Shown here piece by piece: positions 8,692-34,552 of a DNA stretch of 34,588 bases. Origin of the DNA: a virus; IMG/VR virus record IMGVR_UViG_3300042389_000458, positions 1 to 34,588 of that record; one strand, given 5' to 3'. The notes beneath the pieces are model-generated. The model was not told the origin of the DNA and ran no database searches. It worked only from the letters and a program-made list of their open reading frames with translations. Position 1 is the stretch's first letter, and each line of letters starts with the position of its first letter. The translations under genes and the position numbers were made by a program.

Positions 8692-9467
8692 ATAAAGCAA
8701 TCGCACTATTGGAGGACAAGGAGTTTTGTGTTCTGACGGGCGCAGGCATGAGCACCGATTCGGGCATTCCCGACTATCGTGGCTTGGGCACAGCGCCTCG
8801 CAAGCCACTTGACTATGGGCCGTTCATCAAGGATGAAGAGTACCGCAAGGACTTCTGGATCGAGGGCTACCGCGACTGGAAGGAGTTCAGTCAAGCACAG
8901 CCCAATTCCGGTCACATATTCGTTGGCGAGCTTCAGAACGCTGGGTTCATTAATGGTGTCATTACCCAGAACGTGGATGACCTTCACTGGACTGACGAGA
9001 ACCAGGTTGTGGCAGAACTGCACGGTAACATGTACGGCACGGTGTGTTTGATGTGTAAATCATACTTCGCCACCGACCTTGTGGTGCAGAGAATGGAGCT
9101 GGCTAACCCCAGCCTTATCACCGGCACTGTCGATCGTGAGAACTTCTGGACTCCAAAATGTGAGGCTTGTGGTGGAATACTCAAGCCGAGCGTAGTGTTC
9201 TTTGGAGAGAATCTTCCGGCCGACCAGTTTGGTCTGGCTGCGGAGATTGCGCACGATGCGCAGGCGATGGTTATCGCTGGAACCTCGCTCAATGTGAGCA
9301 CACCAATGACGTTCGTGCACATGATGAAGGAGGCCGGCAAGCCGATTATCATTATCAACAAGGGGGCGACCCAAGTTGATAAGCTCGCTGACGTGAAACT
9401 CAACATGAACATCGCGGAGGCTTTTGGTGTGATTGCCAGCAAACTTATGGCTCCGGTGTATATATAA
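8670..9467 (+). CDS. Sir2-family NAD-dependent protein (sirtuin)
   Basis: A 265-residue sirtuin that looks complete. Seen: GAGMSTDSGIPDYR at 24-37 (NAD loop), TQNVDDLH at 99-106, catalytic His in LHG at 118, zinc cysteines C126/C129 and C164/C167, VVFFGENLP at 175-183 and GTSLNVS near 208. Family members use NAD to remove acyl groups from lysine; others only hydrolyse NAD. All catalytic residues are kept. ATG at 8670 has AAGGAAGG in front and overlaps the primase-helicase by 22 bases, so it belongs to the replication operon. Possible roles are altering host proteins or countering NAD-based immunity; neither is shown. Confidence 0.92.
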   Translation: MARAKQIDKAIALLEDKEFCVLTGAGMSTDSGIPDYRGLGTAPRKPLDYGPFIKDEEYRKDFWIEGYRDWKEFSQAQPNSGHIFVGELQNAGFINGVITQNVDDLHWTDENQVVAELHGNMYGTVCLMCKSYFATDLVVQRMELANPSLITGTVDRENFWTPKCEACGGILKPSVVFFGENLPADQFGLAAEIAHDAQAMVIAGTSLNVSTPMTFVHMMKEAGKPIIIINKGATQVDKLADVKLNMNIAEAFGVIASKLMAPVYI

Positions 9468-9468
9468 T
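9463..9468 (+). promoter_or_regulatory. TATAAT -10 box for leaderless transcript of the 9475 gene
   Basis: TATAAT, then six bases (GGATAC), then ATG at 9475. The box overlaps the sirtuin stop codon. No -35 box at 16-18 bases and no ribosome-binding site are seen, so the transcript would begin at the start codon. Confidence 0.65.
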
Positions 9469-9474
9469 GGATAC

Positions 9475-9792
9475 ATGGCTGATTACAAGGTACCTGCTGG
9501 CGCAATTTCAGCAGCTAAGAGAGCTCTTAAGTGGATTGCGGATGGCAAAGCCGGCAAGGGCTTTACTTCTGTGGGCCGAGGGCGTGCGCGACAACTTGCT
9601 CAGGGCGGGTCCGTGGGCAGAGATACTGTGGTTAAGATGCGTGCTTACTTTGCCCGACACGAAGTGGACAAGAAGGCTGAAGGTTTCTACGGTTCGCAAG
9701 AGGGCTACCCGTCTCCAGGTCGCGTCGCATGGGACGCATGGGGTGGGGATGCCGGGAGGTCATGGGTAAATGGCCTCTCACTCGACGACTGA
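9475..9792 (+). CDS. Conserved small phage protein, 105 aa
   Basis: The protein has an N-terminal SAAKRALKWIADGKAG segment, then YFARHEVDKK and a GYPSPGRVAWDAWGGDAGRSW block. I recall this pattern as a widespread stand-alone or N-terminal module in phages and some bacteria, without a firm function. ATG at 9475 sits six bases after TATAAT and lacks a Shine-Dalgarno, so translation is probably leaderless. A competing frame from ATG 9467 is rejected because it lacks the recognisable blocks. It overlaps the next gene by 23 bases. Confidence 0.75.
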   Translation: MADYKVPAGAISAAKRALKWIADGKAGKGFTSVGRGRARQLAQGGSVGRDTVVKMRAYFARHEVDKKAEGFYGSQEGYPSPGRVAWDAWGGDAGRSWVNGLSLDD

Positions 9793-10120
9793 GCCCCTAA
9801 TTATAGCGGTTTACCCCTCTAAGCCCGCAGGAGCCGATCTGGAGGTTTTCAAGGCCGCCAAAGCATCTATGGGTATCGAACGGCTGATACAGCCTGTACG
9901 GGGCGTACAGGGATCGCCTTTTCGAATAATTGCTCTTCGAGAGCGCCCAGACTTCATTTGCGACTACGCTTTTGTAAAAGAGCCCTCACAAAAATCCATT
10001 CAAGCTGCGCTAGAGTGGGCGCTCGGTGAGCACGAGGACTCTCGCGCTGTTACAATAGTTTCAACACTAGAAAAAATATTTAAGGGTGAGGTGAGGGAAA
10101 TTGCCATTTCAGAAAATTAG
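9770..10120 (+). CDS. Hypothetical protein, 116 aa
   Basis: Unrecognised. ATG at 9770 follows GGGAGGT at 9754-9760 with nine-base spacing. The protein opens with IIAVYPSKPAGADLEVF, an alternating beta-strand and helix layout suggesting a small alpha/beta fold. No catalytic motif is evident. It overlaps the preceding gene by 23 bases and the membrane-protein gene by 20, so all three are probably made together. Confidence 0.65.
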   Translation: MASHSTTEPLIIAVYPSKPAGADLEVFKAAKASMGIERLIQPVRGVQGSPFRIIALRERPDFICDYAFVKEPSQKSIQAALEWALGEHEDSRAVTIVSTLEKIFKGEVREIAISEN

Positions 10121-10655
10121 TGCGAGGGCGGTAAACACGCCATCGGTTCCTGGGCCATTTGACAATGAGCTCGATATCTTGCGTCGCAAGAGGTACGAAG
10201 CGCAGGAAGAGAAACGCGCACCGCGTATTCAGATCGACCAGGTAATCACGCTCAACTCGTGGCTGGTCTGTGTGCTGGTTGCGTTTGTGGCTTCCGCTAT
10301 CGTGTCGTTCAACGGCATTACATCAGTAGCCGAGTTCGTAGGATTGTCTGTGACCTGGATGGCCTACCTGTTCTTCTTTTTCATCGAGCTTATGTACCTG
10401 TTGTTTTTGGTTGCGTATCTTCTTTTGGAGTCGCGCGAAAACGAAAACTCAAACGGGGCTTTGGCTGGAATGATATTCTTCGCAACTATTGCCGTGCTGG
10501 CTAACGGATTCCACACCTTCGATTACTGGGCATGGAACTTCGCCGATCCACGGGCTTGGGCTGGTGTCGTGCTTTCGATATCGGCACCTATTGCAATCAT
10601 TAGCGCCAGCAAGATGGCTAGCCGCGTGATTTTCGCAAGGCCGATACTTGATTAA
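10101..10655 (+). CDS. Four-helix membrane protein, 184 aa
   Basis: Starts with TTG at 10101, behind GAGGG. After a cytoplasmic-looking charged N terminus (about 50 residues) there are four hydrophobic stretches: LVCVLVAFVASAIVSF, a long YLFFFFIELMYLLFLVAYLLL, GMIFFATIAVLANGF, and GVVLSISAPIAIISAS. This predicts an integral inner-membrane protein. It lies in the early block, away from the lysis genes, so it is more likely involved in host takeover, exclusion or membrane anchoring than in lysis. No family is recognised. Confidence 0.75.
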   Translation: MPFQKISARAVNTPSVPGPFDNELDILRRKRYEAQEEKRAPRIQIDQVITLNSWLVCVLVAFVASAIVSFNGITSVAEFVGLSVTWMAYLFFFFIELMYLLFLVAYLLLESRENENSNGALAGMIFFATIAVLANGFHTFDYWAWNFADPRAWAGVVLSISAPIAIISASKMASRVIFARPILD

Positions 10656-10965
10656 CGAAACTGTCGAGGTCCTCGAGCCGTGGCAGGAGGTCTCCTTGAG
10701 TGAGGTTTCCGGCAGAACTCACATGGGTCAGATGGCTAAGCTTGGATTAACCCACGGCTGGGTTGTCAAGCTCGCCAAGACTAAATCGCGCACGGTAAAA
10801 ACGCGAACCGGAAAGTCTGTCATTGAGGAACACTTCTGGCTTGGAGGGGCTAAGCCATCGTTCGATAAGCCCGAAAAGGTTTTTCTCATCAACAAGATTT
10901 ACATGAAGAAGAACATGCAGGAATGCGACCTGCCAGAGCTCAAGAAGTTCATTCTCGAAAATTAG
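10648..10965 (+). CDS. Hypothetical basic protein, 105 aa
   Basis: TTG start at 10648, overlapping the end of the membrane-protein gene by eight bases, with AAGG upstream. The product has a Lys/Arg-rich middle (KLAKTKSRTVKTRTGKS) that could contact nucleic acid, and a helical C terminus. I do not recognise a family. The start codon is less certain because no ATG or GTG is available nearby. Confidence 0.6.
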   Translation: MINETVEVLEPWQEVSLSEVSGRTHMGQMAKLGLTHGWVVKLAKTKSRTVKTRTGKSVIEEHFWLGGAKPSFDKPEKVFLINKIYMKKNMQECDLPELKKFILEN

Positions 10966-10968
10966 ATG

Positions 10969-10974
10969 TAAGAT
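10969..10974 (+). promoter_or_regulatory. TAAGAT -10 box for leaderless resolvase transcript
   Basis: TAAGAT, six bases (ACTGCC), then ATG at 10981. TG directly precedes the box. No Shine-Dalgarno lies before the ATG. The box sits in the 15-base gap after the previous gene. Confidence 0.6.
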
Positions 10975-10980
10975 ACTGCC

Positions 10981-11499
10981 ATGAACATTAATTACGTCAT
11001 GGCTATTGATCCGGGTCGCGCCACCGGCGTTGCCATCGGTAGATTATCAATCACCATGCCGATGGAAGTTATCTTCACCGGAATCATTCGTGGTGGGACT
11101 TACGGTTTTGCTGACTGGCTACACAACACTAACGACGGCAAGAGCATCATCGAAAACGATTGCTCATACAATTTCCCCGACGAATATGATGATCTCGACT
11201 ACCACATGGACGTGGTGTGCGAAAACTTCAAGCCACGCGGTGGAAACTTTATTCCCGACCTAGAGCCACTGCGGATCGAGGGGGTCGTCATGGATCACTT
11301 CGGTAGTGTCGTTCAGTGGCACACTCCGGCAGATAAGTCAATGGTGACTGACGATTTCCTAAAGGAACACGGCTTGTGGTTGACAGGAAAAGATGTTGAC
11401 CACGAGGACGCGCGAGACGCAAACGATGCAATGATCCATTTATTCGTGCACGCAATGCGCATCAGACACATCCCAACACTGGAAACATACTGGAGGTAA
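10981..11499 (+). CDS. RuvC-like Holliday junction resolvase (RNase H fold)
   Basis: A 172-residue protein opening with VMAIDPGRATGVAIG, the first acidic strand of RuvC-like nucleases (D9). Later acidic candidates are in VVMDHFG and the C-terminal DHEDARDANDAMIHL, where helix residues complete the metal site. Such enzymes cut four-way junctions or branched DNA before packaging. ATG at 10981 sits six bases after a -10 box and has no ribosome-binding site. It follows the recombination genes functionally although separated from them by several kilobases. Confidence 0.75.
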   Translation: MNINYVMAIDPGRATGVAIGRLSITMPMEVIFTGIIRGGTYGFADWLHNTNDGKSIIENDCSYNFPDEYDDLDYHMDVVCENFKPRGGNFIPDLEPLRIEGVVMDHFGSVVQWHTPADKSMVTDDFLKEHGLWLTGKDVDHEDARDANDAMIHLFVHAMRIRHIPTLETYWR

Positions 11500-11500
11500 C

Positions 11501-11677
11501 ATGGCACCGTACTACATCACTGATGAAAAGGAATCCTGCTCGGGCTGGGCTGTCGTAAAAGGCGACGGAGAAGAAGTGGCGTGTCACGAGAATAAAAGTC
11601 GAGCCATCGATAATATGGTGGCATTGAGCATAGCCGAAGGCATTGAGCCAGGAGGAGAGTGGGAAAGCAATGACTAA
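11501..11677 (+). CDS. Small conserved phage protein with YYIT...GWAVV fold, 58 aa
   Basis: The product starts MAPYYITDEKESCSGWAVV and continues with HENKSRAIDNMVALSIAEG. I recall this compact pattern from many actinophage proteins, sometimes fused to a head maturation protease; here it stands alone. ATG at 11501 follows TGGAGG at 11491-11496. Its stop overlaps the next gene by eight bases. The function is unknown. Confidence 0.65.
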   Translation: MAPYYITDEKESCSGWAVVKGDGEEVACHENKSRAIDNMVALSIAEGIEPGGEWESND

Positions 11678-11864: not shown

Positions 11865-11879
11865 CCAAACAGGGAAACG

Positions 11880-11909: not shown

Positions 11910-11939
11910 CTTTTAGAGTGGACCACCAGCCTTTCCGTT

Positions 11940-12149
11940 TTACTCGGACATGGGCTTTCTATCGTACTGAAGTACTGACGTAAGAAGTGACATGAGTGCC
12001 GCGAGTGCCGCGACACCCAGGGTTTGCGCAAAGTCAATATCAACAATTGATAAAGCTGCGCTTGCAGTAATAACACCGAGCATTGTCTGCGCAAAAGTTT
12101 TTAACGCGCGCTCGGTAGCATAAGCATGAAACATTTTGATCTTATTCAT
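11940..12149 (-). CDS. r1t-type phage holin
   Basis: A 69-residue protein with ATERALKTFAQTMLGVITASAA, then DFAQTLGVAALAALMSLLTSVL, the pattern of the r1t holin family: a short amphipathic N terminus followed by two membrane helices and a charged tail (QYDRKPMSE). Holins form lesions in the cell membrane that time lysis. ATG at 12149 has AAAGGAAGAG upstream; longer in-frame starts would run into the upstream gene. It overlaps that gene by eight bases and is the last gene before the bidirectional terminator. Confidence 0.85.
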   Translation of the reverse strand: MNKIKMFHAYATERALKTFAQTMLGVITASAALSIVDIDFAQTLGVAALAALMSLLTSVLQYDRKPMSE

Positions 12150-12381: not shown

Positions 12382-12385
12382 GCGT

Positions 12386-12451
12386 TTAAGCCATTTCAGG
12401 TAAGCATTTACTGCATTTCGGATCACAGTCGCAACACCCCACTACTGACAT
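12386..12451 (-). CDS. Tiny Cys-rich ORF, 21 aa
   Basis: ATG at 12451 overlaps the preceding 26-codon ORF by ten bases, and its TAA falls four bases before the membrane-protein ATG. The 21-residue product has five cysteines in the order CCDC, then CSKC, and ends LPEMA, a pattern that could bind one zinc ion. No RBS is obvious; coupling is assumed. Reality is not certain because of the length. Confidence 0.42.
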   Translation of the reverse strand: MSVVGCCDCDPKCSKCLPEMA

Positions 12452-12522
12452 GATTCGCAATTCAACGCCTCCATTGGGTCGATCGGGCAAGAGTATCCAT
12501 CTACAAAGTCAATTTCATCCAT
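12442..12522 (-). CDS. Tiny leaderless ORF with three cysteines, 26 aa
   Basis: ATG at 12522 lies exactly six bases from a TGC-TAAAAT extended -10 box, which makes it the apparent first gene of the holin transcript. The acidic 26-residue product begins MDEIDFVDGY and carries one Cys mid-way and a CESC pair at the end. It resembles tiny acidic Cys-containing phage proteins I recall, but no function is known. The promoter geometry is the main evidence. Confidence 0.5.
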   Translation of the reverse strand: MDEIDFVDGYSCPIDPMEALNCESCQ

Positions 12523-12528
12523 TATTCC

Positions 12529-12537
12529 ATTTTAGCA
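12529..12537 (-). promoter_or_regulatory. TGC-TAAAAT extended -10, start of holin transcript
   Basis: On the minus strand TGC-TAAAAT (box 12529-12534) is followed by GGAATA and ATG at 12522. It drives the lysis-side minus-strand group and lies back to back with a plus-strand promoter at 12565-12573. Confidence 0.65.
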
Positions 12538-12564
12538 TTTCGACCACTGGTTGAGACTTTCTTG

Positions 12565-12573
12565 TGATAGGCT
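12565..12573 (+). promoter_or_regulatory. TGA-TAGGCT extended -10 for the exonuclease gene
   Basis: TGA-TAGGCT (box 12568-12573), seven bases, then GTG at 12581. There is no Shine-Dalgarno. The divergent minus-strand promoter lies 28 bases away. Confidence 0.55.
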
Positions 12574-12580
12574 CACGCTT

Positions 12581-13312
12581 GTGAAGATACTGTATCTCGA
12601 TCTAGAAACCAGTCCCATCACGGCTCACACCTGGGGATTGTGGCAACAAAACATTTCGTTGAAGCAGATATTGCAGTCAACGGAAGTCATGTGCTTTGGC
12701 GCTAGGTGGCACGGTCAGAAGAAAGTTATCTTCAAATCGGTACACCACGACGGCAAGAAAGCCATGCTCAAAGAGCTGCACGCCATTATGGACGAAGCGG
12801 ACGCTATCGTAGGCTGGAACTCCAAGTCCTTTGATCACAAGCACATCCGCCGCGAGTTCCTCGAGGCTGGCATGGCACCGCCATCGCCAACCAAAGACAT
12901 CGACCTGATGCTGGAGTGTCGCAAGTACTTCCGCTTCCCGAGCTACAAACTGGACTACGTTGCCCAGAAGCTTGGCGTTGGTGCCAAGGTTGAGCACAGC
13001 GGATTCGAACTCTGGATCAAGTGCATGGCTGGCAACGAGAAGGCTTGGCGCGAGATGAAGAAGTACCAGATTCAGGACGTCAACCTGCTGGTCGATCTTT
13101 ACGAGAAGCTTTTGCCCTGGCTCAAGATTCCAAGTGTCGCGGCACATGACTTTATCGATAACGGTTGCACAAACTGTGGCTCGACCAACATTCACTCACG
13201 CGGGCTCAACGCCACGGACTCCGGCACTTACCGCAGATTCCAGTGTATGGACTGCAAGGCATGGATGCGTGGTGCTAAGAAAGAAACTTCTACCTTAATG
13301 AGGAAGATTTGA
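12581..13312 (+). CDS. DnaQ-like 3'-5' exonuclease with C-terminal zinc ribbon
   Basis: A 243-residue protein. Seen: KILYLDLETSP at the N terminus (D7, E9), VGWNSKSFDHKHI with a second Asp, and YQIQDVNLL as the last acidic motif, in the order of DEDD exonucleases (also found as the proofreading domain of B-family polymerases). The C-terminal 45 residues hold CTNC and CMDC, a zinc ribbon. Such enzymes trim 3' ends in replication or repair. GTG at 12581 is seven bases after a -10 box. It and the next gene form a plus-strand island inside the minus-strand lysis region. Confidence 0.82.
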   Translation: MKILYLDLETSPITAHTWGLWQQNISLKQILQSTEVMCFGARWHGQKKVIFKSVHHDGKKAMLKELHAIMDEADAIVGWNSKSFDHKHIRREFLEAGMAPPSPTKDIDLMLECRKYFRFPSYKLDYVAQKLGVGAKVEHSGFELWIKCMAGNEKAWREMKKYQIQDVNLLVDLYEKLLPWLKIPSVAAHDFIDNGCTNCGSTNIHSRGLNATDSGTYRRFQCMDCKAWMRGAKKETSTLMRKI

Positions 13313-13811: not shown

Positions 13812-14539
13812 TAGTAGGTACCTGCGTTGAGAGCCCGCTGAATTGCGGAGACTGTGACCGGACCCCAGTTGCCATCGGGCTTTGCGCCAACGTGTTTTTG
13901 GACGGCCTTGCGAGTTGCTTCATCGAGGATGCCGGTCTTGGGCGTACCAACCGACTGCTGGATTGCACGGTGTGTCATCGGTCCGGGCTTGCCGTCGATG
14001 ATTCCGGTGTATCCATGGTCCCTAAGAACCTCTTGCCAAGCTTTCCACGTTTCGTTATTAAGTCGGCCAGTAACTTTGACCGTATTATGAGAAGCCGTAG
14101 GCGTGGAGTTGGCATTGAGGTAGGGTATGGGATCGACGTGGCCAGCACTTTGGCTGGTTCTCACCTCGAAGTGTAGGTGGTTTCCGGTTGACAAGCCGGT
14201 GGTTCCGCTGCGGTAGATGACATCTCCGGGAACTACGCGCTGACCAATCTTGAGCGGGCTCTTGTATGCGCCGTGGAAGTATGCTGTATAGCAATCCGAT
14301 GCGTGCTGAATGATGACCACGTTGCCACCAGACTGACGCCTCTTTTGCAGCGGGCTTAGCGATGCCCAGTCGGGAGAAACGTGGACAACCTTGCCCTCGC
14401 CAGCAACGAGCACATCGAAGACGCCGCCGTAGTCAATGCCACGGTGGAACGTGCGCTTCTTGGTAATGGGATGTACGCGCCAGCCAAAGCCGCTGCGCAT
14501 CTGCTGACCCGGTGCGGGATTGGAAAGGCGATATAGCAT
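13811..14539 (-). CDS. Endolysin: M23 metallopeptidase plus peptidoglycan-binding repeats
   Basis: A 242-residue enzyme. Residues about 10-140 form a LytM/M23 peptidase with HRGID (H32, D36), YFHG (H89) and HLHFEV (H121, H123), the zinc-binding and catalytic residues that cut peptide cross-links. After a Ser/Thr linker, residues about 153-242 contain two peptidoglycan-binding-like repeats (DGKPGPMTHRAIQQ and DGNWGPVTVSAIQR). No signal peptide is present, so export depends on the holin. Its ATG is six bases after a TGA-TAAAAT box whose TGA is also the stop of the glycosyltransferase upstream. Confidence 0.92.
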   Translation of the reverse strand: MLYRLSNPAPGQQMRSGFGWRVHPITKKRTFHRGIDYGGVFDVLVAGEGKVVHVSPDWASLSPLQKRRQSGGNVVIIQHASDCYTAYFHGAYKSPLKIGQRVVPGDVIYRSGTTGLSTGNHLHFEVRTSQSAGHVDPIPYLNANSTPTASHNTVKVTGRLNNETWKAWQEVLRDHGYTGIIDGKPGPMTHRAIQQSVGTPKTGILDEATRKAVQKHVGAKPDGNWGPVTVSAIQRALNAGTY

Positions 14540-14545: not shown

Positions 14546-14554
14546 ATTTTATCA
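14546..14554 (-). promoter_or_regulatory. TGA-TAAAAT extended -10 for endolysin
   Basis: Minus-strand TGA-TAAAAT (box 14546-14551), then AGGTAT, then ATG 14539. The TGA is the stop codon of the upstream gene. The AGGT in the gap might aid translation, but spacing is too short for a normal site. Confidence 0.65.
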
Positions 14555-15307
14555 GAGCAAATGGGCATACTTGGCGTAGATTACCGGCACGAGTTCCTGG
14601 ATGCGTGCGTTCTGTTTTCTTTGCGCCGTGTGGGAGCCAATATGCTGCTTGTATAGCAGCTTGGGAATGTGCTGAAAGTCTCCGTTGAGGAAGGTGCGGA
14701 TGATGAGATCGTAGTCATCGCACACCTCGAGGGCGACATCGTGCCCACCAAGCATTCGATAGAATTCTGCGTTCCACACGCGAACATGATTCGGCACGCC
14801 GACGATGTGCTTCATGGACTCGTTGGTCATGGTTGGGATTGAGAGCTGCCAAAGGTTGTGTTCCTCGTTCCATCTATCTACGCCGAATCCCAGTCCCCAT
14901 CCCTCTGGGTAGCGACCGCTAGTTCCGTCCGCAAATACCTCCGCCCAGTCAGAGAAACAAAAGTCGAACCCCTTGTCCATTGTTGTAACTATTTCCTGGA
15001 GCGCATCTGGTGTCAGCTCGTCATCGTGATCTAGCTCAACCAGGTAGTCGCCCTGGGCTGACATAAACGCAACGCGCTTGACTTGACCGATTACCCCAGA
15101 GTGCAGCAGGCCGGACCATACCGTAAGTTTGTAGCGCTCGTCGGACTGGTAGCCGTAGAGCTGTCGCGCTACCTCTGGATTAGTGGAGTCATCATAGACA
15201 ACCCACTCCCAGTCGGTGAAAGTCTGGGCCTTCAGCGATGCCCAGGTGCGTGCGAGAACGTCTTTGGGCGTGTTGTACGTCGGCGTTATTACTGATATCT
15301 TCGGCAT
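14552..15307 (-). CDS. Family 2-type glycosyltransferase (GT-A fold)
   Basis: A 251-residue protein with PKISVITPTYNTP at the N terminus, WVVYDDST near 35-42, and ELDHDDEL at about 91-98 as the metal/nucleotide-sugar site (D93, D95). This is the classic GT2 layout; C-terminal residues resemble acceptor-binding regions. It transfers a sugar, but donor and acceptor cannot be read. ATG at 15307 is selected because ISVITPTYN should be near the N terminus and a TAGACT box lies seven bases upstream. It lies between the collagen-like fibre gene and endolysin, so fibre or cell-wall decoration is possible. Confidence 0.85.
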   Translation of the reverse strand: MPKISVITPTYNTPKDVLARTWASLKAQTFTDWEWVVYDDSTNPEVARQLYGYQSDERYKLTVWSGLLHSGVIGQVKRVAFMSAQGDYLVELDHDDELTPDALQEIVTTMDKGFDFCFSDWAEVFADGTSGRYPEGWGLGFGVDRWNEEHNLWQLSIPTMTNESMKHIVGVPNHVRVWNAEFYRMLGGHDVALEVCDDYDLIIRTFLNGDFQHIPKLLYKQHIGSHTAQRKQNARIQELVPVIYAKYAHLL

Positions 15308-15314: not shown

Positions 15315-15323
15315 AGTCTATCA
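15315..15323 (-). promoter_or_regulatory. TGA-TAGACT extended -10 for glycosyltransferase
   Basis: Minus-strand TGA-TAGACT (box 15315-15320), seven bases, ATG 15307. The TGA is the stop codon of the collagen-like gene. No Shine-Dalgarno is seen. Confidence 0.6.
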
Positions 15324-16553
15324 GTGCGAGAAGCTCCATGTGCTGTGTTCTGGAGCGACTGGTACAAACGCCGAGCCGTTATATATCTTTAAAGACAGTG
15401 TGACAGTATCGTACCAAAGCTGACCGCTTGTTGGCGTGGATGGTTGCGTTCCGGAAACCGTCACCCCAGGTCCAATTGGTCCCTGTGGTCCCTGCGATCC
15501 GGTAGCTCCCTGTGGTCCGGTGGCCCCTTGTGGCCCCTCTGCGCCCTGGGGACCCTGGGCTCCGGTAGCGCCCTGTGGTCCACCATCTCCTTGAGGCCCC
15601 TGGGGTCCCTGAGTGCCAGCAACACCCCGGGGTCCTTGAGGTCCCGTGGCACCTTGAGCCCCAGTTTCCCCTTGCGGTCCAGTAGCGCCCTGCGCGCCAG
15701 CGGGACCCTGCGCGCCAGTAGCGCCTTGGGGGCCCTGGGCACCAGTCGCGCCTTGCGGGCCAGTGGCTCCTTGAGAACCAGCCTCACCCTGGGCTCCCGT
15801 TGCACCCTGGGCTCCGGTCGCACCTTGAGGCCCCTGAGGTCCAGTAGCACCTTGGGGTCCGGGAACAGTAGAAGCGGCCCCCTGCGGTCCCTGGCTTCCC
15901 TGTGGTCCAGTAGCCCCCTGTGGTCCCGGAACAGTAGATTGTGGACCCTGTGGCCCCTGAGAACCTTGTGGTCCAGTTGCTCCCTGTGGACCAGTTGCAC
16001 CTTGTGATCCAGTAGCGCCTTGTGGTCCCTGCGCACCAGTAGTTCCTTGTGGCCCAGTAGCGCCCTGAGTACCCTGCGGTCCTGTTGCGCCCTGACTACC
16101 GGTTGCCCCCTGAGCTCCAGTTGCCCCAGTAGCGCCAGTAGAACCTTGCGGTCCAGTAGAACCCTGGGGTCCCTGTGGTCCCGGAACAGTAGACGCCGCC
16201 CCCTGCGCGCCTTGCGAGCCCTGTGCGCCAACCGCACCCTGCGGACCTTGTGATCCCTGCGGTCCCGGCACGGTAGAGGCTGCGCCCTGAGCCCCTTGTG
16301 GCCCCTGGGAGCCCTGTGGTCCCTGCGAGCCCTGTGGCCCCGGTACCGTGGATTGCGCACCCTGTGGGCCTTGCGATCCCTGTGGACCCAAAGCACCCTG
16401 TGGGCCAACGGCACCCTGCACGCCTTGCGGTCCGCGCAGGTTGGAAATCTCAACCCTGGTTACGGATATTTCCGTCTCAATAACATTGACAATCTCGTCG
16501 GCTTCGATTGTGGTTTCGCTAGTGATTACCTCGACTACGCTCTCGCCACTCAC
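15321..16553 (-). CDS. Collagen-like tail fibre protein, 410 aa
   Basis: Residues about 41-362 are an almost unbroken run of Gly-X-Y triplets, mostly GPQ, GAT, GAQ and GSQ, which in collagen-like proteins fold as a trimeric triple helix. The first 40 residues are Ile/Val/Glu-rich (attachment part) and the last ~50 ([21 protein letters not shown]) form a small cap domain common in fibres. GTG at 16553 has AGAGGT upstream. No lysine was noticed inside the repeats; Ser and Thr are frequent. It is probably a long slender virion fibre or stalk. Confidence 0.88.
15468..16433 (-). repeat. Gly-X-Y coding repeat (about 107 triplets)
   Basis: Nine-base-periodic coding repeat inside the collagen-like gene. 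Codon-level repetition is strong (CCxCARGGx blocks) but varies, so it is not a simple tandem array. It creates long open frames on both strands that are not genes. Confidence 0.85.
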
Positions 16554-16894
16554 TTCGTCACCTCTGGGGATACGATAAATAATCCCTCTAGGAGTCTTGT
16601 CACCTCTCCACTGCTAGAAACCAATTCGAGGTCGTAGCGATAAGTTCCACCGGGAATCAAAGATGTGGCAGTTGCATTCATTGCAATATTGATTTGACCA
16701 GTAGAAGTCAGTGTAATTCCGCTGCCAGTGGTAAGGCTAATCACCGGCGGGTTAGAGTTATAGTCTTTGCGAACCTGCATCCGCGCCGTGTATGTGCTGA
16801 GATTGACGGCGGCACCATCAATCTTCCAGACAAACTGCTGGTCGAATGTAGCGCCCTGGTACATTGTGATTCGGTACGTTCCGGGCTTTTCCAT
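16550..16894 (-). CDS. Phage baseplate/fibre-associated structural protein, 114 aa
   Basis: Beta-rich protein with [33 protein letters not shown] and [21 protein letters not shown], ending in VSPEVTK. I recall this layout as a common small phage protein encoded beside fibre genes; it resembles the N-terminal domain of lactococcal BppU-type baseplate proteins. It probably links a fibre to the tail tip. Its ATG is six bases after a TGG-TACAAT box. Its end overlaps the collagen-like gene start by four bases, so both share a transcript. Confidence 0.7.
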
Positions 16895-16900: not shown

Positions 16901-16909
16901 ATTGTACCA
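16901..16909 (-). promoter_or_regulatory. TGG-TACAAT extended -10 for fibre genes
   Basis: Minus-strand TGG-TACAAT (box 16901-16906), then AGAAGA, then ATG 16894. It drives the small structural protein and the collagen-like fibre. Confidence 0.68.
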
Positions 16910-27992: not shown

Positions 27993-28739
27993 TTAGGAAA
28001 CTGTTACCGCACAAGTGTCGGTCTGTCCGTTGGGAGCAGTAGCCGTGATTGTGGCAGAACCAGCAGCAACCGCAGTTACGACACCGGCGCGAACCGTTGC
28101 CTTAGCGGTGTTGCTAGAGGTCCACTCGAGGCCGTTGGTGTAGTTGCGCCCACCCCAAGTTGCCTTGAGTACGCCGACATTGCCAGCACTCAGAGCAAGG
28201 GTTGCGGCAACCCCGCCGACGTTTCCGCCACCGACGACCGTGCGAACCGCAAAGTCACCCTGGGGGAGCATGGTGACCGTGTAACGGAATGCTTCCTCAC
28301 CGGTGATGGACTCTGCGTAGCCATCGGTCATAACCTTGAAGACGTGAACAAGCTCGCCATTAGCGGCCAGGGGGTTGGTCCGCTCGCCATCAATGCGCAT
28401 GACAACATAGCCCAAGGTGCGGGGTGCGTCTAGTGCATCGTAAGCCTGCGAGTAGGTGCTCGTAGCGTCATCGAAGTTGCGTGGGTAGTAAAGGGAAAGT
28501 GATCCACCAAAGTTGGTGTAACCACGATCGATGACCTTACCGATAGCCGTGATGGCTGGGTCATCGATCTGGTTGGAAGCCTCGAGGTTGAAGTCGAAGT
28601 CGTTCCAGGAAATAGCGTCCGAGATGTCCAACGATGCGTTGATCTCGGCAGCGGTAGGCACCTTGTAGTTGGCAAATGCGTTAGGCAGAGCCCACCATAC
28701 TCGGATGTTACCGCTTGCGGGAACTTTGATATCAGTCAT
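27993..28739 (-). CDS. Tail tube-like protein with C-terminal Ig-like domain
   Basis: A 248-residue protein. The N-terminal ~170 residues resemble the neighbouring gene product (shared A-x-P-x-AFA, PT-x-AE-(I/L)-N) and end in VTMLPQGDFAVRTVV, a tail tube-like layout. Residues about 178-248 form a bacterial Ig-like group 2 domain (ALSAGNVGVLKATW, GLEWTSSNTAKATV, GVVTAVAAGSATITAT). Such domains on tube proteins project from the tail surface and may bind sugars on cells. Its ATG overlaps the previous stop as TAATG. Confidence 0.82.
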   Translation of the reverse strand: MTDIKVPASGNIRVWWALPNAFANYKVPTAAEINASLDISDAISWNDFDFNLEASNQIDDPAITAIGKVIDRGYTNFGGSLSLYYPRNFDDATSTYSQAYDALDAPRTLGYVVMRIDGERTNPLAANGELVHVFKVMTDGYAESITGEEAFRYTVTMLPQGDFAVRTVVGGGNVGGVAATLALSAGNVGVLKATWGGRNYTNGLEWTSSNTAKATVRAGVVTAVAAGSATITATAPNGQTDTCAVTVS

Positions 28740-29281
28740 TAGGAGCCAGTCACCTCGTAGTTCCAGTTCACGAAGTCGTTGTTAAGGAACGACTGGCTAA
28801 TGCGCAGGTTTTCACCGTTGCCGCCAATGTCGATACCGAAGTCAGTCTTAACGCCGACCATCTTGATGCGGTCATCGACAGCAAAAACGCTGTCGCTGTC
28901 TTTTCCGACACGGAGAATAGCGATGTATTCAACGTCGGGGAATGCAAGGAGGTCGAACGCTTCGTTGTAAACGCCAACAGCAGCGGTGTCAGCGTCACGG
29001 AATGCTTCCATGACCACCTCTGGGTTGAAGAACGTTGGGGTCGAAACGTTACCGGCGTCGCAGAAAGTCAGCGAGTCGTCGGTGTCCGAGTCTCCGAGCG
29101 TGAAAGTTGTTCCATCTTCGTTCAGCGCGCAGGTTATGTTGTGAACCAGTCCGTCAGCGTTAGTGCTAGCGTTGTACCAGTCGTTCAACTCGGCAACCGT
29201 CGGAGCTGTGCGATCCGCGAATGCCTCCGGGCGAGCGAGGAGGAACGTAATATTCTCACGATAGAGTCTTACGTTAGCCAT
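28739..29281 (-). CDS. Tail tube-like protein, 180 aa (paralogue of 27993 gene)
   Basis: The N terminus NITFLLARPEAFADRTAPTVAELN parallels NIRVWWALPNAFANYKVPTAAEIN-type sequence in the next gene, indicating a tandem duplication. It lacks the Ig-like domain. One of the pair should be the major tail tube subunit; the other may be a minor or decorated version. ATG at 29281 has GAGGAAG upstream and overlaps a TAA that lies in frame with the small upstream gene beyond its amber codon. Confidence 0.78.
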   Translation of the reverse strand: MANVRLYRENITFLLARPEAFADRTAPTVAELNDWYNASTNADGLVHNITCALNEDGTTFTLGDSDTDDSLTFCDAGNVSTPTFFNPEVVMEAFRDADTAAVGVYNEAFDLLAFPDVEYIAILRVGKDSDSVFAVDDRIKMVGVKTDFGIDIGGNGENLRISQSFLNNDFVNWNYEVTGS

Positions 29282-29370: not shown

Positions 29371-29577
29371 CTAGGAAATCTTTTTCTTGCTCTTTTTGTA
29401 CAAGGGCATAGTTGGTTGAACCTTTTCTTCAACGGTTCCGCCGTGGTACATTTCGGCAATATAGGGCTTGGTCCCGTTTTCAACGGGAACGAGATATTTA
29501 CTGAACTGTGGGTGCAAAAGCATTTTTGGAGACACGTCAGCGATCTGCCCGGATACAGTATTCATCGCAAGTACCAT
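29371..29577 (-). CDS. Small Lys-tailed structural-region protein, amber-interrupted
   Basis: A 68-residue product (MVLAMNTVSGQIADVSPKML..., ending KKSKKKIS) stops at TAG 29371-29373. The same frame then stays open for 29 more codons, rich in Lys, Glu and Val, to a TAA at 29283-29281 that overlaps the next ATG (TAATG) exactly as at most other junctions here. The natural length may therefore be 98 codons, reached by readthrough or before a recent nonsense mutation. I recall related small phage proteins with charged tails located before the tube gene. Its ATG is six bases after TGG-TAAACT. Confidence 0.7.
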   Translation of the reverse strand: MVLAMNTVSGQIADVSPKMLLHPQFSKYLVPVENGTKPYIAEMYHGGTVEEKVQPTMPLYKKSKKKIS

Positions 29578-29583: not shown

Positions 29584-29592
29584 AGTTTACCA
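29584..29592 (-). promoter_or_regulatory. TGG-TAAACT extended -10 for tube gene group
   Basis: Minus-strand TGG-TAAACT (box 29584-29589), then AGATAC, then ATG 29577. No ribosome-binding site is present. It would drive the small protein and both tube-like genes up to the terminator at 27948. Confidence 0.65.
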
Positions 29593-29596
29593 CCGT

Positions 29597-30600: not shown

Positions 30601-30605
30601 GAGGC

Positions 30606-31061
30606 TTATGAACCAATAGTGTCGGAAATTGATTTTGTGTCAACGGAACAATAAATAGTGGTGTTCCAGCCGTAAGAAGAATTAATAACCGAGTCTATAG
30701 ATAACTCAAGTTCCTCTAGGAATACATTTTCTCCACCGCCAACAATCCGAATGGACATACCCGAGCGAATGTAATCATCGGTGTTGTCGTAAGGAATCTG
30801 AACAACCAAAGACCGCATAGAGGGATCATAAATATCACCATTGGGATAGGATGATCTTTTTAGCGGTTGAATTCTGGCTTTACCGGACCAGATTAGCGTG
30901 GCGGCATCTCCGGCATAAGAATTTGTCTCAATGTCCCAAGCAAGGTTTCCCGTATTGGGATCAACAATCTCAATCTGAGCGTTATACCAAAATGCCACAG
31001 TTTTGCGCATTGCATCAGCGATGCCAGAGAAGTTAATTGGATTGGTGCTAGATACTGGCAC
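30606..31061 (-). CDS. Head-tail stopper-like protein, 151 aa
   Basis: Mostly beta: VAFWYNAQIEIVDPNTGNLAWD, LIWSGKARIQPLKRSS, SLVVQIPYDNTDDYIRSGMSIRIV, a small barrel like stopper proteins that close the connector until DNA release. It is in the canonical order connector, stopper, gp10-like, terminator. GTG at 31061 shares a base with the previous TAG (TAGTG), paralleling the TAATG junctions; in-frame TTG/GTG codons a few residues earlier are alternatives. Confidence 0.72.
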   Translation of the reverse strand: MPVSSTNPINFSGIADAMRKTVAFWYNAQIEIVDPNTGNLAWDIETNSYAGDAATLIWSGKARIQPLKRSSYPNGDIYDPSMRSLVVQIPYDNTDDYIRSGMSIRIVGGGENVFLEELELSIDSVINSSYGWNTTIYCSVDTKSISDTIGS

Positions 31062-31474
31062 TAGTTCCACCAAGTAAGATCGCCATAGGGACGTTCCGCA
31101 AAGTCCGTGTAGTGATCCTCCTCAACATACATTGCAATCATGTTGAAGTACTCGGAGGATTCATCGGCCAGGGCCTCCTCGCGAAGCTGCGCCGCCAGCT
31201 TACGCAACGACTCCGCAATCCTGTCGCCGTTAACAGTTAGATCATCTGAGGTCCAGGACTTCAGGAGCAATGCTTGTGACATGGAGATCGTCTCTAAGCA
31301 GCGTGCGGCGGCGAGCTTTACGTTATCGCCATACATTGTAAGGAAGGCAGCGATTTCATCGTCACCAAAGTACATGTACTCACCGGAGTCATCGGCTTGT
31401 GTGTCACCCAAAAGCGCGCGAACCTTACCGATGTCGGTGTTGTAGTCAACAGGAGATGCTCCCAAATTAGCCAT
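31061..31474 (-). CDS. Head-tail connector (adaptor) protein, 137 aa
   Basis: Predominantly helical: DIGKVRALLGDTQADDSGEY, FGDDEIAAFLTMYGDNVKLAAARCLETI, then DRIAESLRKLAAQLREEAL. The phrase VRxLLGDT followed by DDEIxAFL is typical of gp6/gp15-like adaptors that dock on the portal. ATG at 31474 is six bases after TAAAAT and lacks a ribosome-binding site. It begins the head-tail joining group; portal and capsid genes are expected off the right side. Confidence 0.85.
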   Translation of the reverse strand: MANLGASPVDYNTDIGKVRALLGDTQADDSGEYMYFGDDEIAAFLTMYGDNVKLAAARCLETISMSQALLLKSWTSDDLTVNGDRIAESLRKLAAQLREEALADESSEYFNMIAMYVEEDHYTDFAERPYGDLTWWN

Positions 31475-31480
31475 ACAATC

Positions 31481-31486
31481 ATTTTA
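31481..31486 (-). promoter_or_regulatory. TAAAAT -10 box for head-tail connector group
   Basis: Minus-strand TAAAAT, six bases (GATTGT), ATG 31474. It lies immediately after a long hairpin terminator. TGn is not exact here. Confidence 0.6.
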
Positions 31487-31496
31487 CCTCATAAAA

Positions 31497-31552
31497 GAAC
31501 CCCGACCCGGAGCTGGAGGGGGAAGGGGGGTAAGCTCGACGGGTCGGGGTTC
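31497..31552 (-). terminator. Long hairpin, likely minus-strand terminator
   Basis: A perfect 13-bp inverted repeat, GAACCCCGACCCG (31497-31509) and its complement (31540-31552), extended by GAGCT/AGCTC, with a purine-rich apical loop of G runs. Read on minus it is followed by TTTTAT; read on plus no T run follows. Together with 31553-31600 it fills the divergent gap; no other gene is supported there. Confidence 0.72.
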
Positions 31553-31600
31553 GTCCAGCAGGAGGGAAGCTGGTAGTACTAAGTTATCACAGAAATGAAG

Positions 31601-31606
31601 TATCAT
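31601..31606 (+). promoter_or_regulatory. TATCAT -10 box for plus-strand glycosyltransferase
   Basis: TATCAT, six bases (TTGGGT), then GTG at 31613. If correct, the ATG at 31595 lies upstream of the transcript and the protein starts at GTG. Confidence 0.5.
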
Positions 31607-31612
31607 TTGGGT

Positions 31613-32269
31613 GTGTCTAGACTTGCCGTTGTTCTCACTCTGTATGACAGGCTTGAGTATTTGGACAGGCAAATATCAGAACTCGGCGCTCAGAACAATC
31701 AGGATTTTGACCTGTATATATGCAACAACAGCGGGCAAGAGATATCTTTCCCCGGGGCTCGTATCTACAACTACTCCAATAAATATAAAATGTACGGCAG
31801 GTTCTATCTGATTAGGGACCACATCGCAAATGCCGAGTACGACATGGTGCTGCTTGTGGATGACGACGAGGTGTTTCCACCGGGCCTAATAGAAGAATGT
31901 TACAGGCAGTTTGACGAGGAGATTGTAAAATCCTTCTGGGGCTTCCAGACCTACCAGGATTATTGGATAAGAGATAGGCTGCGTGGGGACAGGAAAGGCG
32001 ATTACGCTGGCACTGGTGGCCTCTTGAGCCCTATTGCCCTGTGGCGGATACCCGAGGTTTACGAGGCACCCGAAGAATATTGGATCATAGATGATCTCTG
32101 GTTGTCTTATTGCATATTAAAACATACCGACTACTTAATTATGGGCCTGAACGTACCCATTACGTTTTATCCAGATGAATCCAAGAAGGCAACCTATTTG
32201 TCAATCAAGCCGCTGAAGTCAGCGTTTCACAAGGAATATATTATGCCTTACCGCAGAGCCAGCGGATAG
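31613..32269 (+). CDS. GT-A type glycosyltransferase, 218 aa
   Basis: N-terminal RLAVVLTLYDRLEYL strand-helix and LLVDDDEVFP at about 81-89 (D83-E86) mark a GT-A nucleotide-sugar transferase. Later YAGTGGLLSP and WIIDDLWLSY are reminiscent of the acceptor/metal part of such enzymes. GTG at 31613 is preferred for its -10 geometry; ATG 31595 in frame adds six residues. It is the only plus-strand gene in the right cluster and its 3' end overlaps the convergent GT4-like gene by 29 bases. Target probably a virion or cell-surface glycan. Confidence 0.78.
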   Translation: MSRLAVVLTLYDRLEYLDRQISELGAQNNQDFDLYICNNSGQEISFPGARIYNYSNKYKMYGRFYLIRDHIANAEYDMVLLVDDDEVFPPGLIEECYRQFDEEIVKSFWGFQTYQDYWIRDRLRGDRKGDYAGTGGLLSPIALWRIPEVYEAPEEYWIIDDLWLSYCILKHTDYLIMGLNVPITFYPDESKKATYLSIKPLKSAFHKEYIMPYRRASG

Positions 32270-33185
32270 CGTTGTGCAGTTCCCCAACTTGTCTGGAGAA
32301 CTCTTTCGATAAATTTAACGCACGAAGTTCGGCCTTTTGGGAATACTTCTCGTAGGTCCCTTGATCATCTAGCGACTCTATCAATCTGATAAAAGACTTC
32401 GCATCGTCCGGCTCGGCAAACATTCCGGCATCCGCAACAGATTCCACAAGGCCGGGAGTTCTCGAGGCGACCACTGGTATTCCGGAAGCCATTGCTTCAA
32501 CCGCAACCCTGCCCCAGCTTTCATACTTTGAGGGCATGAAGAATATTTTAGTTTGCGCGTAAATTGACTTCATGTTACCGGTGTTCTCTACAACACGAAC
32601 GTTCGCCAACCTTTTGACTATTTGATTTCCGTAACCACCCTTGACCGCCAGAAACTCTCGATCACTAAGAATCTCCGCAACTCGCCAAAACATATCCACC
32701 CCCTTGATATCAATCAAATTGATAAATGTAATCTTGTTGGCTTCTGGGCGCTCTGTTTTATAGAAATCAATGTTTGTGTGCGGGTTGATAATCATTTTAT
32801 TTAGATTGTTAATTCTTATTCCGTCATACACCCACTTGGAATTGGCAACAATAAGATTGGAGTTGCTTGCATTTAATCTAAAAAGTTTTACGGCCTTGTC
32901 GTTATGGATAAAATGAACAATCGGCTTATTGATTGACTTGGCGTGCTCTATGGCGTGCTTAGTATCGTGATTTTGCGTAAACACAATATCCGCATCGAAT
33001 TGATAAACCTGCGAGTACTTAATAATGCGTATTCCGTCAACGAGCTTATGCGGAGGATTCGGTTGGGCAACCATTACCTCGTGCCCAAGTTCCCGCAGTG
33101 CCAGGAGCGTTTCATGTAACATTAACTCTGCACCAGCTCGGGTGGATGGCGGATATAGATTTACATAGGCAAGAATTTTAGCCAT
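32241..33185 (-). CDS. GT4-type glycosyltransferase (GT-B fold), 314 aa
   Basis: Two-domain GT-B layout: N-terminal KILAYVNLYPPSTRAGAE with a Gly loop, ELGHEVMVAQP; C-terminal domain with FFMPSKYESWGRVAVEAMAS carrying the E-x7-E motif (E222, E230), then GIPVVASRTPGLVESV. These bind the nucleotide sugar. Retaining transferase activity is typical of the family. ATG at 33185 overlaps the stop of the upstream glycosyltransferase by eight bases, so both are translated from one message. Donor and acceptor unknown. Confidence 0.87.
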   Translation of the reverse strand: MAKILAYVNLYPPSTRAGAELMLHETLLALRELGHEVMVAQPNPPHKLVDGIRIIKYSQVYQFDADIVFTQNHDTKHAIEHAKSINKPIVHFIHNDKAVKLFRLNASNSNLIVANSKWVYDGIRINNLNKMIINPHTNIDFYKTERPEANKITFINLIDIKGVDMFWRVAEILSDREFLAVKGGYGNQIVKRLANVRVVENTGNMKSIYAQTKIFFMPSKYESWGRVAVEAMASGIPVVASRTPGLVESVADAGMFAEPDDAKSFIRLIESLDDQGTYEKYSQKAELRALNLSKEFSRQVGELHNAIRWLCGKA

Positions 33186-33909
33186 GCGCCCAACCGCGCA
33201 ATCCCGGCAAAGATTTCAACAATTGCTCATCCCTAAATCCTATGTGCGTAATGTAAGCGTCATATGGATTCTCCGCCCAGAATCCAACTGTAGCGCTAGC
33301 ATCGCGCTTCAGTAGTTGTATACCAAAATCATACTCGTGACTCGAGGTGTTGGGGTATTTATTATCCAATATGCTCCTATGGAACACCGATGGGTTGTGC
33401 GACCAGAAATAGAAGTGCCCTCTTGTTTCGTACCAGCGCTCGCGTTTCTCTGCGAGTTGTGCTTTATTGTCATTCAAATGGTGAAGGAGCAGACTGCCGG
33501 CATCCAGATCGAGACGATGGTATTCGGAGTGCCAAACCGTGCGGGGGACACGCATCTGCGCGATATGTGGATTATTGCATAACTCATATATTATGCTCTG
33601 AACATCTAGTGGCCTGAACAGCATCCAGTCTTCTTCGATCCCCAGGAAGTAATCAACGTCAAGCTCGCGCAGCGTGTCGAATATTTTCTGTACGGCCACG
33701 GCTTGACCGGCCACCCCACTCGATATGGGGACAACGGTAAAGTCTTGCCCGTAATTATCGATCAGCCACTTAACGTGCTCCGGGTCCCCGGAGTCATCGA
33801 AGATGTAACTATACTTCGGCTTATCGATCAGATTGGCCAACCACGAAGCTATCGTTCGTTCGATATATCCCCGTCTACCGTTCCCTAAAATATACCAAGC
33901 GTAATCCAT
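33178..33909 (-). CDS. Glycosyltransferase-like protein, 243 aa
   Basis: YSYIFDDSGDPEHV near 34-46 and DYFLGIEEDWMLF near 86-98 resemble the two metal/donor motifs of GT-A enzymes (EED at 92-94 in place of DxD). GHFYFWSHNPSVFHRSIL is similar to the acceptor side of phage and LPS transferases. ATG at 33909 lies six bases after TAAAAT, which overlaps the stop of the previous gene. It is the first gene of a two-gene unit with the GT4-type enzyme. Confidence 0.72.
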   Translation of the reverse strand: MDYAWYILGNGRRGYIERTIASWLANLIDKPKYSYIFDDSGDPEHVKWLIDNYGQDFTVVPISSGVAGQAVAVQKIFDTLRELDVDYFLGIEEDWMLFRPLDVQSIIYELCNNPHIAQMRVPRTVWHSEYHRLDLDAGSLLLHHLNDNKAQLAEKRERWYETRGHFYFWSHNPSVFHRSILDNKYPNTSSHEYDFGIQLLKRDASATVGFWAENPYDAYITHIGFRDEQLLKSLPGLRGWAHG

Positions 33910-33913
33910 GCTT

Positions 33914-34540
33914 CTATTTTAGTGCAAACACTCCGGACTTGTTAGTGGCATTTGGACCCGGAAGGGTAAAGTTTGTTTCCTTTTCGTTTATGCCATCTTG
34001 ATACACCATGGGATCGGTCAGCCCGTAAACCTCAAAGTACTTTACAAGCTCGGCATTTGCCTTATCGACTGGCTCCGATATCGACACAAGAAAATTATAC
34101 GACTTCATAAGTAGTTTTGCGTAATCTCTATTGAAGTAAACAATGCCGTGCGTAGACAGCATGTTGTAAACGCGATAGAGTTCCCTGGTGTGTGGCTCAA
34201 TAGATATGCGCCTGTGCCCAGTCCCGTTGTAAATACCCCATCTAGATATTCCGACATAGAGGGCATCAGCGGTCTCCGGAACATCTATTGTGGTGTTTGG
34301 GTTCTTGATAAAGATGTCATCTTCAAATATTGCAAATGGACCACTTGTTGCCTCGAGCGCAGTCGCAATGGCCTTTATGTGCGCCATTGCGCAGCCAACA
34401 ATCTTGCCCAAGCCCTCGATGCCGGGAATTCTCGTAACACTTTCGAATCCAAGAACGGCCAGAACCGATTCTGTCGATTCTCTTTTCTCAACATCGGCAT
34501 CCATGTTTATGTAGAACGCCGGAATCTTATTTATCTCCAC
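33914..34540 (-). CDS. GT25-like glycosyltransferase, 208 aa
   Basis: The start IPAFYINMDADVEKRESTESVLAVLGF, then RIPGIEG, VGCAMAHIKAI and FAIFEDDIFI (EDD at 73-75) follow the GT25 pattern: strand-INxD, a Cys-x-x-x-His helix, and a metal-binding EDD. GT25 includes LPS galactosyltransferases and collagen galactosyltransferases. GTG at 34540 sits six bases after TATTCT; no Shine-Dalgarno is seen, so leaderless initiation is likely. A longer reading frame runs through the hairpin upstream and is rejected. Confidence 0.78.
   Translation of the reverse strand: MEINKIPAFYINMDADVEKRESTESVLAVLGFESVTRIPGIEGLGKIVGCAMAHIKAIATALEATSGPFAIFEDDIFIKNPNTTIDVPETADALYVGISRWGIYNGTGHRRISIEPHTRELYRVYNMLSTHGIVYFNRDYAKLLMKSYNFLVSISEPVDKANAELVKYFEVYGLTDPMVYQDGINEKETNFTLPGPNATNKSGVFALK
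33916..33921 (-). promoter_or_regulatory. TAAAAT -10 box for two glycosyltransferase genes
   Basis: Minus-strand TAAAAT, then AGAAGC, then ATG 33909. The first base of the box region touches the TAG stop of the upstream gene. Confidence 0.62.
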
Positions 34541-34546
34541 CAGTAA

Positions 34547-34552
34547 AGAATA
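34547..34552 (-). promoter_or_regulatory. TATTCT -10 box for GT25-like gene
   Basis: Minus-strand TATTCT with TG directly before it, six bases (TTACTG), then GTG 34540. It lies just downstream of a strong hairpin. Confidence 0.6.

Follow-up and report, generated by a model that had tools for sequence, protein, structure and literature searches.

Predicted leaderless promoters and a candidate two-hairpin RNA in the late region of an environmental phage

Among phage genes that are leaderless, single repressor genes are the best-known examples. In Thermus phage P23-45, the middle and late mRNAs are largely leaderless. An excerpt of PMC7403470 assigns the middle and late promoters of this phage to the extended -10 class, which needs no contact of sigma region 4 with a -35 element and is favoured by the sigma-region-4 factor gp39. 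Phage transcripts are often leaderless, as a passage of PMC5312081 states. In actinobacteria, leaderless (TA-led) genes make up more than 20% of all genes and have TANNNT about 12 bases upstream of the start codon and no Shine-Dalgarno (SD) sequence, according to part of PMC3160421. Excerpts of PMC10470900 describe the M. abscessus small RNA (sRNA) B11, which still represses a reporter with a G-tract 5' untranslated region when one of its two C-rich loops is mutated, but not when both are; most B11-repressed ESX-related genes have a complementary sequence in their ribosome-binding site or lie downstream of such a gene. In this study, we analyzed the virus record IMGVR_UViG_3300042389_000458 over its whole length of 34,588 bases (hereafter, the window). 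It has 50% G+C and codes for two WhiB-like proteins, tail proteins, an M23 endolysin and glycosyltransferases. Judging from the sequence, we consider it highly probable that leaderless promoters without a -35 element, often of the extended -10 type, drive a set of its genes; the same promoter type apparently also makes a small RNA near position 31474.

Box-to-start gap and two fixed late sites

The sequence-only reading had listed 12 starts preceded by a -10 box at a nearly constant distance, and the geometry that it described was confirmed. All 12 sites carry TAnnnT followed by 6 bases (N6; ten sites) or 7 bases (N7; 12581 and 15307) and then ATG or GTG. An exact TGn stands upstream of the box at six of them (12522, 12581, 14539, 15307, 16894 and 29577). 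As that reading had also said, no -35 signal is seen: the best match to TTGACA has on average 3.4 mismatches at the 12 sites and 3.2 at 3,000 random places. Among 79 N6 sites of relatives, the average is 3.5 mismatches, with one exact match.

The distance itself was compared with other gaps. Genes were called by a hexamer score and TAnnnT was counted at gaps of 0-25 bases from every in-frame ATG or GTG near each gene start, equally at all gaps. In the 50 called genes of the window, nine boxes fall at N6 (Poisson P = 8e-7) and three at N7 (P = 0.07), where the 22 control gaps average 0.95. These 12 matches comprise 11 of the listed sites plus 13769 at N7; the remaining site, 12522, fell outside the size limit of the gene caller. 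The relatives, that is, 29 loci (28 contigs) carrying the gene that starts at 31474 (g43), were reduced to 340 distinct genes and gave 80 boxes at N6 and 20 at N7, with a control mean of 8.9. Because related phages contribute several rows for a given gene, these rows lack independence and the P values overstate the significance; the position of the peak is unaffected. In the relatives, TGn precedes 35 of the 80 N6 boxes versus 18 of 196 boxes at control gaps, and the commonest N6 boxes are TAAAAT (21/80) and TAAACT (17/80).

An SD-like string is absent at 10 of the 11 boxed starts in the gene table, which bears out the claim that most of them lack a ribosome-binding site. The start at 31474 scores as SD-like solely through a GAGG that overlaps its box. 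Such strings are found in 23 of 36 other window genes versus 1 of the 11 boxed starts (Fisher P = 0.002); boxes and SD-like strings thus tend to be mutually exclusive.

Two of the sites, both in the late region, are fixed among the relatives:

31481..31486, minus strand: -10 box TAAAAT, N6 from the ATG at 31474 (g43); present with the same N6 gap in all 20 rows (window plus 19)
31061..31474, minus strand: g43, in the head-tail connector region and predicted to be leaderless; phrog_18316 (4e-24), unknown function
29584..29589, minus strand: -10 box TAAACT preceded by TGG, N6 from the ATG at 29577 (g39)
29371..29577, minus strand: g39, predicted leaderless gene of 68 amino acids, directly before the tail-tube genes
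27993-29281, minus strand: two tandem tail-tube genes 3' of the conserved predicted promoter at 29577 (PF25595; the second with a Big_2 domain)

Orthologues were counted at 40% identity or more and with distinct upstream sequences. The box is kept at N5-8 in 19 of 19 orthologues of g43 and in 18 of 18 of g39, for which no match was found in Pfam or PHROG. The g39 gap is N6 in 17 of 19 rows, N7 in one and N5 in one. At both starts, box and gap are kept in the orthologues while the neighbouring letters vary. Conservation in related phages, which had been named as a check on the promoters, settles these two sites.

Three indirect lines suggest that transcription starts at the start codon. The first is the gap of 6-7 bases. 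The second is the base at -1, a pyrimidine in 69 of 78 N6 genes versus 20 of 77 SD genes (P = 6e-16), which fits a pyrimidine-purine initiator at the start codon. The third comes from the predicted small RNA near 31474: all 18 distinct rows have a TAnnnT 5-8 bases upstream of hairpin 1, so that this kind of promoter can be read there without a start codon. Gap specificity, conservation of box and gap, and the pyrimidine before the start codon together give good support to the leaderless promoters proposed by the sequence-only reading. On this basis we infer start sites, leaderless translation, timing, polymerase used and RNA expression as follows. The host primary RNA polymerase would recognize promoters that lack a -35 element and are often of the extended -10 type (TGnTAnnnT or GGTAAAAT), lying about 7 bases upstream of the start point, which would coincide with the first base of the start codon. 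The mRNAs would then lack a 5' leader and be translated by the leaderless route. Promoters of this kind would stand at fixed late points, before the connector block (31474) and before the tail-tube block (29577), as well as at several less conserved points, and the same type would also make the short two-hairpin RNA just upstream of 31474.

Several observations weigh against this reading. A scan of the whole window free of gene calling, for TAnnnT followed by ATG or GTG, is noisy: N6 ranks first of 26 gaps with 36 matches, close to N14 (33) and N5 (31). The same scan restricted to strong boxes (TAnnAT) and to open reading frames (ORFs) of at least 50 codons gives nine at N6 and at most three at any other gap. 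The boxes at 9475, 12581 and, in part, 14539 are not kept in most orthologues. Among cultured relatives, g43 is SD-led in six phages (Yappy, Kukla, TripleJ, LuckyBarnes, BV113 and MinS1), and there is no peak at N6 in six loci of Arthrobacter, Glutamicibacter and Brevibacterium phages (50 genes: one at N6, none at N7). Finally, seven of the starts lie only 4-36 bases downstream of a co-directional gene. Hence, the statement that most of these starts open a gene group holds only in part, and coupling on a read-through mRNA is possible at those seven. The late region is mixed, because other late genes (g27, g29, g30, g32, g34 and g36-g38) carry SD-like strings.

The noise of the scan and the lack of conservation at 9475 are what would be expected if the geometry arose by chance together with the choice of start codon, the starts having been picked to fit. 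Alternative in-frame starts do exist at 31613 (an ATG at 31595), 15307 and 34540. This explanation is very improbable: the N6 peak persists when every gap is given equal freedom, and at 31474 and 29577 both box and gap are retained in the orthologues. The gap and orthologue tests refute chance as an explanation of the whole set, although it may still apply to individual sites, for example 9475. The seven starts close behind co-directional stop codons would rather suit real promoters that yield leadered mRNAs, or translation mainly by coupling from the upstream gene, as would the box of phage Jojan60, located about 27 bases upstream of the annotated start. We regard this second alternative as improbable, given that the gap is sharply 6-7 bases with a pyrimidine at -1, that an SD-like string is missing at all but one of the 11 starts, and that a terminator-like hairpin separates the small RNA from g43. 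Leaderless promoters thus remain the reading that we favour.

A predicted small RNA between the capsid gene and g43

The RNA and its predicted promoter are located as follows:

31493..31574, minus strand: predicted small RNA of about 82 nt (ends predicted)
31581..31589, minus strand: TGA-TAACTT, the extended -10 of the small RNA; its gap to A31574, the predicted first base, is 6 bases

Hairpin 1 has the loop UUCCCUCCU; hairpin 2 has a C-rich loop and ends in a T-run terminator. For the window copy, the predicted folding energy is -40.7 kcal/mol (z = -7.2). In an alignment of 16 rows with the structure given by RNAalifold, 98.7% of the pair cells are paired and 11 of 20 pairs show compensatory changes, and none of 500 shuffles reaches the values of the alignment on all five measures. 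The structure is, therefore, a covarying one. A covariance model scores the window copy at 91.8 bits, the window being one of the 16 sequences of the model. Across 83 sources the model finds 29 matches, of which those used to build it match by construction, and all adjoin g43: the window, locus L120 and 27 of the 29 g43 loci. Loci L036 and L037 are missed by the model and carry a diverged form with a CCTCCTCC loop.

In the relatives, g43 comes after the capsid gene and the RNA element. The order in many of them, from the capsid gene to g43, is a terminator-like hairpin, an extended -10, hairpin 1, hairpin 2 with its T-run, a -10 box and the ATG. The capsid gene was identified from its position and from phrog_133 (head and packaging; four of four cases tested), and cultured phages such as Yappy have an annotated major capsid protein at the same place. 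In the window, g44-g47 lie upstream of the RNA, likewise in locus L012, where the capsid gene precedes them.

It may be asked whether the C-rich hairpins upstream of g43 make an RNA at all, or merely close off the capsid operon as a double terminator or an insulator. With its T-run, hairpin 2 has the features of a good intrinsic terminator, a further terminator-like hairpin precedes the element in many relatives, and Rfam scans of the window and ten relative loci found no family for it (lines for lin-4 and anti-hemB were below the cut-off). A plain terminator would not readily account for the separate extended -10 upstream of hairpin 1, whose TGn is present in 16 of 18 distinct rows, nor for hairpin 1 itself: it has no T-run, yet the CCTCCT letters of its loop are the same in all 16 aligned rows, whereas stem 2 shows compensated variation. 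We consider the terminator explanation a reasonable possibility, if somewhat unlikely, and keep to the reading of a small RNA made from its own promoter.

When the model was run against 199 genomes of the family of genome G001, no host copy was found at that sensitivity. The three matches were the G001 phage contig and two weak ones (34.5 and 32.2 bits), both terminator-like hairpins in contexts that seem not to be phage-like. Among the matches listed in a search of the open-licence literature, a weak test, no report of the element was found. An extended -10 with a hairpin behind it occurs at 221 distinct sites; the loop contains CCTCC at 20 of them and GGAGG at none, but 17 of the 20 represent a single locus shared by the window and its relatives.

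The anti-SD letters of the loop raise the idea of a translational switch, in which the CCUCC loops of a late, 6C-like RNA would pair with host and early phage ribosome-binding sites and lower SD-led translation, which the leaderless late mRNAs would escape. If this were true, leaderless promoters and anti-SD RNA would be the halves of one switch in many Microbacteriaceae phages. The invariant loop favours the idea, together with similar loops in phages CN1A and Jojan60 and nested ones in Hubbs and Wolfstar. Pairing of the loop is weak at leaderless starts (median -2.8 kcal/mol, 11 genes) compared with 21 other plus-strand starts (-7.2) and 15 other minus-strand starts (-6.9), largely because the former have no SD sequence. 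On the other hand, g36-g38, which are late genes, have SD-like strings in all but one of 34 orthologue rows, and the loop pairs with late SD genes about as well as with early ones. Late genes that retain SD-like strings speak against a general shut-off, and we hold the switch to be rather doubtful. A single conserved target was also sought: g07 has the best pairing (-15.3 kcal/mol), but the ribosome-binding sites of its relatives do not follow the loop, and it was rejected.

Less conserved sites, cultured phages and host

The other listed sites, with the counts of orthologues that share the box, are given below:

33916..33921, minus strand: -10 box TAAAAT, N6 from the ATG at 33909 (g46, galactosyl transferase, phrog_3047); 2 of 2 orthologues
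34547..34552, minus strand: -10 box TATTCT, N6 from the GTG at 34540 (g47); 2 of 2 orthologues, and also locus L014 at 35% identity
31601..31606, plus strand: -10 box TATCAT, N6 from the GTG at 31613 (g44); 3 of 4 orthologues
10969..10974, plus strand: -10 box TAAGAT, N6 from the ATG at 10981 (g21); 3 of 5 orthologues
14546..14551, minus strand: -10 box TAAAAT preceded by TGA, N6 from the ATG at 14539 (g25); 6 of 29 orthologues
12568..12573, plus strand: -10 box TAGGCT preceded by TGA, N7 from the GTG at 12581 (g23, exonuclease); 4 of 49 orthologues
9463..9468, plus strand: -10 box TATAAT, N6 from the ATG at 9475 (g17), early region; 0 of 8 orthologues
15315..15320, minus strand: -10 box TAGACT preceded by TGA, N7 from the ATG at 15307 (g26, glycosyltransferase 2)
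16901..16906, minus strand: -10 box TACAAT preceded by TGG, N6 from the ATG at 16894 (g28)
12529..12534, minus strand: -10 box TAAAAT preceded by TGC, N6 from the ATG at 12522, upstream of a holin-like gene (11940-12149)
12442..12522, minus strand: conserved ORF of 26 residues ending in CESCQ, divergent from g23

Taken gene by gene, the 12 starts of the sequence-only reading are thus a mixture of fixed, lineage-specific and unsupported sites. The sites at 9475, 15307 and 16894 are without comparative support; the latter two are read from sequence only, no orthologue with the same start having been found for g26 or g28. SD-like strings occur in 4 of 8 orthologues of g17, in 10 of 29 of g25 (an M23 peptidase endolysin) and in 35 of 49 of g23. 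At least three of the four boxed g23 orthologues have the box at N8. Of six upstream rows of g44, whose product resembles a glycosyltransferase below the Pfam cut-off, four have a box (TAAAAT-N7-ATG in L014) and two have none. A GC-rich, terminator-like hairpin can be read upstream of the g47 box.

The 26-residue ORF was matched in 54 of the 119 loci searched, some of which are parts of one contig, with the C-terminus C(D/E)SCQ. Nine of its 29 distinct upstream sequences in relatives carry TGn-TAAAAT-N6 without an SD-like string, one more has N5, and 16 carry an SD-like string without the box. Relatives would therefore start this ORF from either signal, not both. The stretch 12522-12581 holds divergent leaderless-type promoters about 60 bases apart, directed towards the holin-like gene and the exonuclease gene.

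Cultured phages show the same layout in part. The box geometry is found before the genes at the g43 position of CN1A, CMP1, Molivia, Anansi and Nonagon; in CN1A it lies at the homologous start, not at the annotated one. In Yappy, a small ORF before g43 has a box at N5. In CN1A and Jojan60, the region downstream of the capsid gene has a box and then a hairpin whose loop contains CCTCC. In Hubbs and Wolfstar, CTCCTCCTCC occupies the inner loop of a longer terminator-like hairpin at that place. In Anansi and Molivia, the terminator that precedes g43 contains TTCCTCC in its loop. The form seen in CMP1 is weaker, and Nonagon has a CTCCTGTA loop before its capsid protease. Inspection by eye found no such element before g43 in Kukla, TripleJ, LuckyBarnes, BV113 or MinS1. 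Boxes at N6 and N7 number five and three in 35 genes of Microbacterium phage loci, three and two in 28 genes of Curtobacterium phage loci, and two and one in 18 genes of Clavibacter phage loci. Cultured Microbacterium phages with this layout make leaderless translation during infection testable.

Some records of these phages merit attention. In the Clavibacter phage CN1A (L122, 4001-4100), the g43-like gene is annotated 99 bases downstream of the homologous leaderless-type start. In the Microbacterium phage Hubbs (L165, 8523), the -10 box overlaps the ATG annotated as the start of the gene that follows the capsid gene. Both annotated starts may be wrong and in need of correction. The host of Jojan60 (L129) is recorded as Stenotrophomonas; its genes and its layout of promoter and RNA are like those of Microbacteriaceae phages, and the recorded host may deserve a check.

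The remaining features of the window relevant to its biology are the following:

3623-4042 and 6186-6482, plus strand: two WhiB-like regulators, early region (Pfam PF02467)
8670-9467, plus strand: Sir2-type NAD-dependent deacetylase, early region (phrog_2162, 3e-20)
15321-16553, minus strand: collagen-like protein with GPQGxxG repeats, adjoining a glycosyltransferase gene

The virus probably infects water-dwelling actinobacteria. The 43 phage records that match its minor tail protein include 32 from Microbacterium, 4 from Clavibacter and 3 from Curtobacterium phages, and the single match in a scan of bacterial and archaeal genomes was a relative within a contig of an uncultured Microbacteriaceae metagenome-assembled genome (MAG). 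On these two grounds we infer a Microbacteriaceae host. A Megablast search of the tail region against phage records gave no match. N6 sites number 7 per 99 genes in 115,670 bases of this MAG of about 2.3 Mb, a small sample of an unchecked bin, versus 80 per 340 in the phages (Fisher P = 0.0002).

Comparison with known systems

The sequence-only reading had called a late region built of many leaderless cassettes unusual. Several such genes are indeed present and two are fixed; however, both kinds were known before, leaderless genes with TANNNT as well as phage promoters of the extended -10 class. No study of leaderless genes in this phage group was found among the literature matches listed. What the window adds is an environmental phage family that appears to keep two leaderless-type late promoters in place, and a conserved C-loop RNA as a candidate regulator of the phage. 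RNAs of this kind act on ribosome-binding sites as repressors in the same phylum.

With its two hairpins and C-rich loops, the phage RNA resembles the actinobacterial 6C/B11 sRNA. It differs in giving no match to 6C (RF01066) in the Rfam scans, in being phage-borne and tied to the capsid/connector junction, and in having CCUCC in the loop of hairpin 1. The F6 sRNA of M. tuberculosis (RF01791) also has a C-rich loop, and its model matches weakly (18.4 bits against a cut-off of 46); by this measure, the phage RNA is not a member.

The predicted promoters of the window would resemble the middle and late promoters of P23-45 in so far as they are of the extended -10 class, which needs no -35 element; TGn precedes the box at 6 of 12 window sites, at 35 of 80 N6 sites of the relatives and in 16 of 18 distinct rows of the RNA promoter. 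The host of P23-45 belongs to a different phylum. The window codes for two WhiB-like proteins. WhiB proteins contact sigma region 4, and it is our guess that those of the window might act in a role like that of gp39. The predicted genes are like actinobacterial TA-led genes in the placement of TANNNT (12 of 12 sites, with the N6 peak) and in the absence of an SD sequence at 10 of 11 starts. Unlike them, they are phage-borne and partly fixed at late-gene positions, with AT-rich boxes and a frequent TGn.

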